A model generated the notes under the pieces. It searched no databases, had not been told where the DNA came from, and saw only the letters and a program-made list of their open reading frames with translations. From contig NC_091107.1 of NCBI RefSeq assembly GCF_024713975.1, positions 14,931,501 through 14,995,500 on the forward strand: DNA of 64,000 nt. Direction: 5' to 3'. Shown piece by piece: positions 32,101 to 35,100 of this stretch. Numbering within the stretch: the first letter of the stretch is position 1; the number at the start of each line of letters is the position of its first letter. The position numbers and the translations under genes were made by a program. This DNA is from Paralichthys olivaceus (taxonomy: Eukaryota; Chordata; Actinopteri; Pleuronectiformes; Paralichthyidae).

Positions 32101-35100
32101 CTTCCTCAACACAAGTTTTCTTCCTCTCCTTCCTACCCCTCCATCTACTCTCTCCATTCCTGTTTTGAAATTAAACACCTTACTTGATCAATAAAGGAGG
32201 TTTGATGACAAGTGAAGGGTGATTATTTATTTCTTCCCCACGTGCCCAGACAGCTCGCTCTTTCTGGTGGTCATTCACTACCTGCATGCACTATGCTTTC
32301 TCTGTCTTCTCCCATGCGTCTGACTTCATGTAGTTTTCTTTCAATTTGCTTTTTTGTCACCATAACTTACCTCATTTCTGACCTCGGTTTTTTCTTGTTT
32401 TGTTTTCATCCCTTCTGTTCTTTTCTTTTTTATCTTCTTTTATTTCTCCTACCATCCCTTTTGCCCCTCCTCTCCCACAGATCAGGTTGCAGTTGTGGGA
32501 CACGGCAGGTCAAGAGCGGTTTCGTAGCCTAATCCCGAGTTACATCAGAGACTCAGCTGCTGCTGTCGTAGTGTACGACATCACAAGTAGGTGGACTACC
32601 TGTACATCCCCCTGTCCTCTGTTATATGTTCATATTATGACTTTCTTTAATTTAACAAAATAACGTCTTGTCAAATCCACTTAAATGCTAACTAAAACAA
32701 GCAAAGGTTTGTTTTATACTGTGATGTAACCACACATTTCTTAATGGAAATGTTGTAATTCCATATTTATATATCAGACTTGGCAAGATTTATACAATTC
32801 ATAGTTCCACTTCATTGCAGGAACACTGTTAAGCTGTTTTCAGACATGAACTTAAGAAAATGTCCTTTTACATATAAAGAACATAGCAGGACATTGTTTG
32901 GTCAGACTCGTTCACAACAACACAGAGATTTCTGAAGTGTTCATGAGAGGATAACGCAGGAGGTAATGTTTAAATTACGCTGTGTAGATCACATGTTTTT
33001 GTTGACAACACATTGACACTAGCATTGGCCCTTTAACCAAATGCTCTCGAATCTCCTTATCTTGCCATGTTGACATCTTCTTTTGCATCTGCTGTGTGTA
33101 ACACAAAAAAATCTCCTGAATGTTGATGCTCTGCTTACTGTTTTGTCCTCCTCCTTCTCTTTCTTAGATGTCAACTCCTTCCAGCAAACAACAAAATGGA
33201 TTGATGATGTGAGAACAGAGAGAGGAAGTGATGTCATCATCATGTTGGTGGGAAACAAGACAGACCTTGCAGACAAAAGGTAAGCCCCCCCCCCCCCCCC
33301 CCCCAGTGCTAAAGGGCTCTCTCCATTAAGAGCATACTAATGAAGCCATCGATTGTAACTGCTGGCCAGTCAATACTGTGTTCTTCAGCCCCTCCTGAGA
33401 CAGCATTCAATCAGAGGAAGTTATCTCTGCCCTTTGTGGATGTCAAAGCTGTGACGGTTGCTCTGCTGTTTTTTGACTGCTAGATGCCTTTGTTTGTTTC
33501 ATTCCATGGAATGGATCATTAAACCCACTATAAACATTGGATGTGAAGATATCTGCCCTTTGCAGTTTAATTGTAAAGGTTTTCTTTTAAATATATCTCG
33601 TAAAGTTTGTTATGATGTGTTTTTATTTTGTTGCATTGATCTTGTGTATTTAATCCACACCGACTTTAAATATCTACTTTTGTCAAACTCATACGCTCAC
33701 TGATAGTTGTCAGTAGTGATGTATAATAGTTTTCAGTATGAAAGTGTGTTCTGTGTGATCCTCTAAATCTACCTGTTTAATTAAATTACATTTGTATTTT
33801 GCTGTGCAACTTTTAACCCCCTTATCTACCACAGGCAAGTATCTATTGAAGAGGGTGAGCGGAAAGCCAAAGAACTAAATGTAATGTTTATTGAGACTAG
33901 TGCGAAAGCAGGCTACAACGTAAAACAGGTAAGAGTGCGTGTGAGTCGTGCTCTGTATTCCTGCTGCAGATGCTGCCACCTTGGCGTCACTTCCAAAGGT
34001 CACCTGTCAAAATCTAATTTACTAGATGTTGCAGGATCTTAAAGTCATTTATGTCCATTTTTCTCAAGTGGTAGTTTTGGAAAATATTTTGTTTTTTATT
34101 TTCTTATTTATTTGCACAGCAAATAAGGAGCTAGAACCAGCAGCTGATTCTCTTAAAGGTCCAGTGTGTAAGATTTAGGTGAAAGGGATTTTTATTTTTA
34201 CTGGTGTGTTTCATCTAAATTGTATGAATTGTTGTTTTCTTTACCATAGAATAAACGCTTTATATTTAAAACTGTGTATTTACATGGAGGGGGGTCCTCT
34301 CTGTGGAGGCCGCCATGTTTTTTTACTGTCGTCCAAACTAAAACCTTTTTGAGTTTTCATGACAACTGAAGTTCACCACAGGTTCTATTTCATGGAAGGG
34401 GAGGGTGAGATGAGGAGTATTCAGCTGCAACATGCAACTTCACCTCTAGATGTCACTAAATTCTACACACTGAACCTTTAACCCAGAAACTGGGAAAGGG
34501 GTGAAACATTTAGTACAAACAATCTATTCCCAAAGAAAAATAACCTTACCAGCAATAAAGCTAACTTTAACTGTTAGAAATGCTGGTAGCAGATTTTGTC
34601 CCTGTTGTAAAGACCCAATCTGCAATTTCTCCTGTTTCAAGTTTTTATCTAAGCTAAGCTTATTAGGCTACAGACAGTTACAGCTGCTGATTTGTCATAC
34701 ACACAAGGGAGTGGTAATAGTTACTACTCTGCTTCTCTTCCTGTTGTGTAGCTCAGCTGACACAATTAACAGCCGCAAAGTCTATCTGGAAACTTTTGGT
34801 CTTGAGCAAAGGTGACAGTAACAGCAGGAAGGGGCACGACTTGTTAACCTACTTCAACGTAATCACTACGTATATTTTTTTCTCCTTGTCTTCTTGTCCA
34901 TGTCTGTGGTGGTATGTGCGTCTCCCTCTGTGTGTTTGTGTGTGTTGTGTGCGGTGACTCGTGGGCCATCACAGACAGATAACCACAGAGGAGGGAGAAC
35001 AGAGAGCGAAAGAGATGAATGTTCTGTTTATTGAAACAAGTGCAAAGACAGGCTACAATGTCAAACAGGTAGAGAGTGTGCGCCTTTTTGTGTGTGTATG

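Follow-up and report, generated by a model that had tools for sequence, protein, structure and literature searches.

A Tandem Pair of Exon 6 Copies in a Fish rab6a Gene, Probably Mutually Exclusive and Older than the RAB6A/RAB6B Split

Does a single fish Rab gene carry two versions of exon 6 that are used one at a time, and, if so, where did the second version come from? An earlier note on this DNA had described two homologous exons in series in rab6a and proposed that they are alternatives. The stretch analyzed here, hereafter the window, comprises 64,000 nucleotides (C15:14931501-14995500) and belongs to a genome that was scanned as 25 contigs totaling 588 Mb.

rab6a and Its Neighborhood in the Window

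rab6a was located at window positions 29188-37105 on the plus strand. The spliced gene model gave GT-AG introns and the exon order 1, 2, 3, 4, 5, 6a, 6b, 7, 8.

29188..29257, plus strand: exon 1, coding part (tblastn, splice junctions, and spliced translation)
31636..31694, plus strand: exon 2 (spliced gene model)
31818..31871, plus strand: exon 3 (spliced gene model)
32481..32586, plus strand: exon 4, single copy, Rab6A' type with I62, A87, and A88 (tblastn, gene model, and structure match)
33168..33279, plus strand: exon 5 (spliced gene model)
33835..33928, plus strand: exon 6a, with the split Arg and a strong donor; encoded stretch identical to human RAB6A
34975..35068, plus strand: exon 6b, RAB6B-like, with the weak donor GTAGAG and a UG-rich acceptor
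36178..36244, plus strand: exon 7, with donor GTATCCTTT, U12-type in appearance (gene model)
37041..37105, plus strand: exon 8, coding part and stop; the protein ends in CSC (gene model)

The A' label given to I62, A87, and A88 follows the residues distinguishing Rab6A from Rab6A'. The Ras domain is present in the window protein, and the top solved-structure match of its 6b form is human RAB6A 4dkx, which has A'-type residues (208/208 residues). Mitochondrial-carrier genes lie downstream; we take these to be ucp genes, and neighboring stretches are presumably dnajb13 and ppme1, two fragments without a Pfam match. The gene order fits the human 11q13.4 neighborhood of RAB6A. By protein and neighborhood, the window gene is identified as a RAB6A gene. 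The earlier note had called it rab6a and had set its exon 6 switch apart from the exon 4 switch of mammals, which is borne out by the single-copy exon 4: tblastn of the 64-kb window returned one exon 4 (IAA type), with the next match at E = 0.065. None of the listed weaker matches fell within intron 4, and an exon 4 duplication in the window gene was ruled out.

Three further features of the window were recorded. Positions 41185-57151 form a repeated block with dnajb13-like ORFs at 41185 and 47820 (plus strand) and mitochondrial-carrier ORFs at 43786, 51154, and 56184 (minus strand), which suggests a tandemly duplicated dnajb13-ucp segment, both gene labels being presumed. Between the repeated blocks, a DDE-endonuclease ORF (45179-45748; Pfam DDE_3) probably derives from a Tc1-like transposon. 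A connexin ORF was found at 10074-11015 on the minus strand (Pfam Connexin, E = 1e-81).

Anatomy of the Exon 6 Pair

As the earlier note had it, each exon of the pair is 94 nt long, completes the Arg codon begun in exon 5, and ends on a codon boundary; the gene model confirmed this. They agree at 69 of 94 nt and, with the split Arg counted, at 24 of 32 residues, so that eight of 32 residues differ rather than about ten of 31 as first estimated. The two exons lie in a direct repeat of 102 nt with 75% identity. When the window was searched with 6a by tblastn, 6b was matched at E = 3.5e-14 and the next best stretch at E = 1.0; the likeness of 6a and 6b is therefore not due to chance.

Spliced translation with either 6a alone or 6b alone yielded a 208-residue Rab6A. 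Inclusion of both, which had been expected to shift the frame, did so and brought in a stop codon, with the last junction lying 101 nt downstream of it, and omission of both broke the frame and left a truncated reading of 156 residues. Transcripts with both exons would be expected to be degraded by nonsense-mediated decay, and those with neither would encode a truncated protein.

The 25 nucleotide differences between 6a and 6b fall on codon positions 1, 2, and 3 as 5, 3, and 17. Random placement of 25 changes altered 15.7 ± 1.8 residues, and eight or fewer, the observed number being 8, were reached in 4 of 100,000 simulations; the pair has therefore been kept to its coding sense. A stop codon appeared in 57% of neutral simulations, and the frame of 6b is open after synonymous saturation. 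This pattern indicates that both copies are under purifying selection.

The window gene has what characterizes a tandem mutually exclusive pair, namely neighboring homologous exons that match in length and phase and have intact GT-AG sites, and we infer from the sequence that 6a and 6b are spliced as alternatives. Two candidate bases of exclusivity were ruled out. Steric exclusion through a short intron does not apply to a 6a-6b intron of 1046 nt, and U2/U12 incompatibility does not apply to 6a and 6b, neither donor being U12-like. Only the intron between exons 7 and 8 looks U12-type, that is, a substrate of the minor spliceosome. It begins with GTATCCTTT in all four Rab6 genes of this genome (on contigs C15, C9, C16, and C3; window 36245-37040 in C15), and its branch site is TTCTTTAAC-like in C15 and C16 and TTGCTTAAC in C9; the call was made against the U12 consensus.

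Splice-site Strength and Intron Motifs

Donors and acceptors of the window gene were scored with a position matrix. The 6a donor (CAG|GTAAGA) scored 11.0 and is strong, and the 6a acceptor is average (pyrimidine fraction 0.71 at positions -20 to -4). The 6b donor (CAG|GTAGAG) scored 5.05 and ranked last among seven ordinary donors, of which the rest ranged from 6.7 to 11.2. The 6b acceptor is UG-rich, and its pyrimidine fraction of 0.53 was the lowest of eight, the other seven ranging from 0.71 to 1.00. The earlier note had credited both exons with good splice sites; GT-AG is intact on both, but the strengths are unequal, 6b having the weakest ordinary donor and the acceptor lowest in pyrimidine. 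Weak donors combined with pyrimidine-poor acceptors are frequent in regulated exons. Exon 6a, with its strong donor, would be the default, and the weak sites of 6b are probably regulated.

The introns around 6b were searched for regulatory motifs.

34929..35106, plus strand: UG-repeat-rich intron sequence flanking exon 6b on both sides, a candidate splicing-regulator site (suggestive only)

TGTGTG clusters lie on either side of 6b, and five GCATG occur in the intron between 6b and 7 (shuffle P = 0.021, uncorrected; three motif sets were tested over eight introns, and nine motifs over nine regions). Intron 1 of the same gene holds 24 TGTGTG against 2.6 expected, and a search around exon 6b of the rab6a-like gene on C9 gave one GCATG against five and no TGTGTG. 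Because intron 1 is likewise TGTGTG-rich and the C9 gene lacks these motifs, they were discounted and set aside as evidence.

Two other intron features were observed. A run of 20 C (window 33285-33304), a few bases past the exon 5 donor, may be a target of poly-C-binding proteins or a sequencing trouble spot. At window 34153-34481, within the 6a-6b intron, 26-nt terminal inverted repeats (88%) stand 277 nt apart, and this repeat is probably a small non-autonomous DNA transposon.

Other Rab6 Genes in the Genome

A genome search with exon 6b gave 19 matches at E up to 10, of which six were identified as Rab6 exons (two each on C15 and C9 and one each on C3 and C16); the remaining 13 have E from 0.0057 upward. 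Viral contigs scanned with the 6b isoform contained 0 relatives. On C9, a rab6a-like gene has the order exon 4 IAA, exon 4 VTI, 5, 6a, 6b, 7, 8, with frames and sites intact.

5541-5436 and 4962-4857 within C9:17828501-17838500, minus strand: two copies of exon 4, IAA then VTI, similar to the mammalian Rab6A'/Rab6A switch

The rab6b-like genes on C3 and C16 each have one exon 4 (VTV) and one exon 6 of the 6b type, that of C3 encoding a protein stretch identical to human RAB6B. No 6a-like stretch was detected in rab6b introns by tblastn at E up to 0.05; the search covered the C16 gene in full and C3 continuously from exon 5 to exon 7, the C3 sequence being without a 4.5-kb piece of intron 1 and without a located exon 8. 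The earlier note was right that the pair is real, but it had missed the RAB6B likeness of 6b, the exon 4 and exon 6 pairs of C9, and the restriction of rab6b to the 6b type.

Decay of 6b in close relatives had been named beforehand as an outcome that would speak against the pair. Neither copy has decayed in the C9 gene, the one relative examined: 6a again precedes 6b, both keep the frame, and both are bounded by GT-AG. Comparison of 6b between C15 and C9 showed 14 nucleotide differences, of which 12 fall on third codon positions; 30 of 32 residues are the same (dN 0.027, dS 1.32). The 6a exon of C9 is the most drifted copy and shares 27 of 32 residues with 6a of C15 (dN 0.091, dS saturated). 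Both 6b exons have the donor CAG|GTAGAG; the sites of 6b are weak in both genes, and those of 6a are weak in C9. The introns around the C9 pair have almost nothing in common with those of C15.

These comparisons bear on two explanations in which the 6b protein matters little or not at all. One is that 6b acts mainly as a poison exon, with degradation of transcripts containing 6a and 6b setting the rab6a dosage. The premature stop on double inclusion and the weak 6b sites are compatible with such a role, but a poison exon requires no conserved coding sense, as is evident between the two 6b exons, and 6b alone restores the frame exactly; we consider this very unlikely. The other, which we find scarcely credible, is that 6b is a dead or unused duplicate retained by chance, or an assembly artefact. 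Its weak donor and poor polypyrimidine tract would suit a dead copy, but its frame has stayed open after synonymous saturation, in spite of the stops frequent in the neutral simulations, and an assembly error would not create a second intact pair on another chromosome-size contig within nearly unrelated introns.

Likeness of 6b to RAB6B and Age of the Pair

Six sites of exon 6 distinguish human RAB6A from RAB6B, and at five (136, 137, 143, 144, and 159) 6b agrees with RAB6B. In a BLOSUM-based simulation with the changed positions fixed, this agreement had P = 3e-5 for C15 and 2e-5 for C9. The best solved-structure match of the 6b stretch is RAB6B 2e9s, and outside exon 6b the window protein is RAB6A'-like. 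Fly Rab6 agrees with 6a at each of the six diagnostic sites, yet shares T138 with 6b; yeast Rab6 shares I136 and T138 with 6b, and Plasmodium Rab6 shares T137 and Q143. Only sites 144 (K144) and 159 (A159) are 6a-like in fly, yeast, and Plasmodium alike. Judged by these residues, 6a probably represents the older state and 6b a derived one, although the sites are not unanimous.

An unrooted DNA tree of the six exon 6 copies (6a and 6b of C15 and of C9, and the exons of C3 and C16) had the topology ((C15_6a, C9_6a), ((C15_6b, C9_6b), (C3, C16))), i.e. the exons grouped by type and not by gene. Support was 90/89 for the 6a pair against the other four, 88/91 for the 6b pair, and 65/70 for the rab6b pair, no branch attaining 95/80. 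Forcing 6a and 6b together within one gene was rejected (p-AU 0.036 for C15 and 0.018 for C9, uncorrected). In a protein tree of the 32 residues that included human, fly, and Plasmodium rows, the B-type group received 80/81. The type-wise tree, the conservation between the 6b exons, and their common donor indicate that the exon duplication is probably older than the duplication that gave rise to the C15 and C9 genes. The grouping of 6b with the rab6b exons suggests, in addition, that it is older than the RAB6A/RAB6B split.

A likeness of 6b to RAB6B might also have arisen by convergence after an independent, fish-only duplication of the exon. The shared changes are mostly conservative, some 6b residues recur in Rab6 of yeast or of Plasmodium, and support at the exon level is moderate, but the simulated P values and the rejection of a within-gene origin leave this explanation extremely improbable. 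It is also conceivable, though unlikely, that 6b was copied from a rab6b gene into a rab6a intron by ectopic exchange or gene conversion after RAB6A and RAB6B had split and before the two fish rab6a genes separated, which would make 6b usable but not ancestral. The RAB6B residues at five of six diagnostic sites would be expected from such an event, and an exon moved together with its flanks would also bring the matching intron phase. The tree, however, pairs the two 6b exons beside, not inside, the rab6b exons, which themselves are paired less firmly, and an ancestral pair followed by differential loss requires no transfer.

We therefore regard it as probable that the two exon 6 copies of this RAB6A gene are mutually exclusive and stem from an ancient tandem duplication that preceded the RAB6A/RAB6B split. 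After that split, RAB6B would have retained 6b only, and both fish rab6a genes would have retained 6a and 6b; the human RAB6A chains examined carry 6a.

An assignment of the C9 gene to the RAB6B lineage was disfavored: the constant exons place it on the RAB6A side (77/87). Fly is placed there as well, however, the alternative was not rejected (p-AU 0.137), and the constant-exon DNA, with support of 56/26, is too saturated to be decisive. Quite probably, C9 rab6a and the window gene are partners that stem from the teleost genome duplication; if the C15/C9 split is older, the pair is older still. An inppl1-like gene on C9 agrees at 81% over 47 residues against 50% over 66 residues for INPP5D, and a further C9 gene, without a Pfam match, is presumably stard10. 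We take INPPL1 and STARD10 to be human 11q13.4 genes, as are the window genes. A second inppl1-like exon and fam168a-like exons are on C11, not C15, which counts against a simple pairing of C15 and C9. A C9 arrestin gave a mixed picture, with S-arrestin best on one stretch and beta-arrestin-1 better on some exons. No neighbor common to the two rab6a genes was found, the open frames of 40 kb of C9 matching only rab6a in the window. A SHIP-type phosphatase exon at C3:21795060-21795191, 64% identical to that of C9, is about 0.11 Mb from rab6b. This exon and the inppl1-like gene near C9 rab6a suggest that RAB6A/INPPL1 and RAB6B/INPP5D are linked ohnologue pairs.

A wider reading is more tentative, and we give it slightly less than an even chance. 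The early vertebrate Rab6 gene might have had switches at both exon 4 (VTV/IAA) and exon 6 (a/b), with up to four GTPases per locus; RAB6B would be the frozen VTV + 6b form, mammalian RAB6A would have kept the exon 4 switch, the window gene the exon 6 switch, and C9 both. The exon 6 half of this proposal is better supported than the exon 4 half. The exon 4 pair could have arisen later, in RAB6A alone, because fly Rab6 and rab6b are both of the VTV type.

Predicted Consequences of the Swap and Tissue of Use

Placed on the Ras fold, exon 6 presumably covers helix alpha4 and strand beta6 together with the SAK motif of G5, which residue 159 adjoins. Exon 6b would insert an alpha4, beta6, and G5 (SAK) region of the RAB6B type, and the switch regions and the tail would remain Rab6A'-like. 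The swapped region appears to lie away from the known effector face. The swap would therefore be less likely to affect the classical choice of effectors than to tune nucleotide handling, contact with exchange factors, or orientation at the membrane.

RAB6B is described as the dominant Rab6 in mouse brain (PMC7360120). For trout, two genes are singled out as the top forms with brain-specific splicing, and Rab6a is one of them; a figure legend of that paper emphasizes intron retention and exon skipping (PMC8321248). In a reef fish, rab6a was differentially spliced during a heatwave (PMC8933327). No rab6a exon or event type was found named in the available text of the trout or the reef-fish paper. 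Because RAB6B is the brain-type protein and trout rab6a splicing is brain-specific, 6b may, by analogy, be a form biased to nervous tissue.

If the fish gene does swap in a RAB6B-type exon 6, the effect of a few residues could be examined alone, in one gene, via exon removal. Rab6A and Rab6B are over 90% identical (PMC10267580), and what distinguishes the brain-type Rab6 is not obvious. It would also follow that mammalian Rab6 isoform catalogues are not transferable to fish and that a rab6a knockdown may hit a RAB6B-like product. Should the two-switch proposal hold, the brain-type Rab6 would have started out as a neural splice form and become a gene of its own only later.

Comparison with Known Systems

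There are precedents both for tandem exons used in a mutually exclusive way and for their partition among paralogues. Among the papers listed in a literature search, none was seen to describe an exon 6 switch of rab6a; the pair may already appear as predicted isoforms in genome annotation. For mouse Rab6, mutually exclusive exons 4 and 5 are reported (PMC2898759). The mammalian Rab6A/Rab6A' switch is similar in that neighboring exons of the same gene are used singly. It differs in that the switch of the window gene is at exon 6 (alpha4-beta6-G5), its exon 4 being a single IAA copy, and the C9 gene has 6a and 6b in addition to an exon 4 pair (IAA and VTI). That one gene still has two separate exon pairs is a notable feature of C9. 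Compared with the RAB6B paralogue, 6b agrees in its diagnostic residues and best structure match, but in the window gene only this exon is RAB6B-like, the rest being nearest to RAB6A', and the product would be a splice form and not a separate gene.

Work on splice-isoform separation after gene duplication describes ancestral exon pairs that were retained in some paralogues and reduced to a single copy in others, as in CACNA1S/CACNA1F and the FYN family, and RAB6 had 0 occurrences in its main text (PMC9741552). The Rab6 genes may be a similar case, the rab6b genes of C3 and C16 having a single 6b-type exon 6 in the stretches examined and the rab6a genes the pair, and they would offer a readable case of an alternative exon pair shared out between paralogous genes. 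As with CACNA1C/D in that paper, the descendant rab6a genes still hold the full pair.
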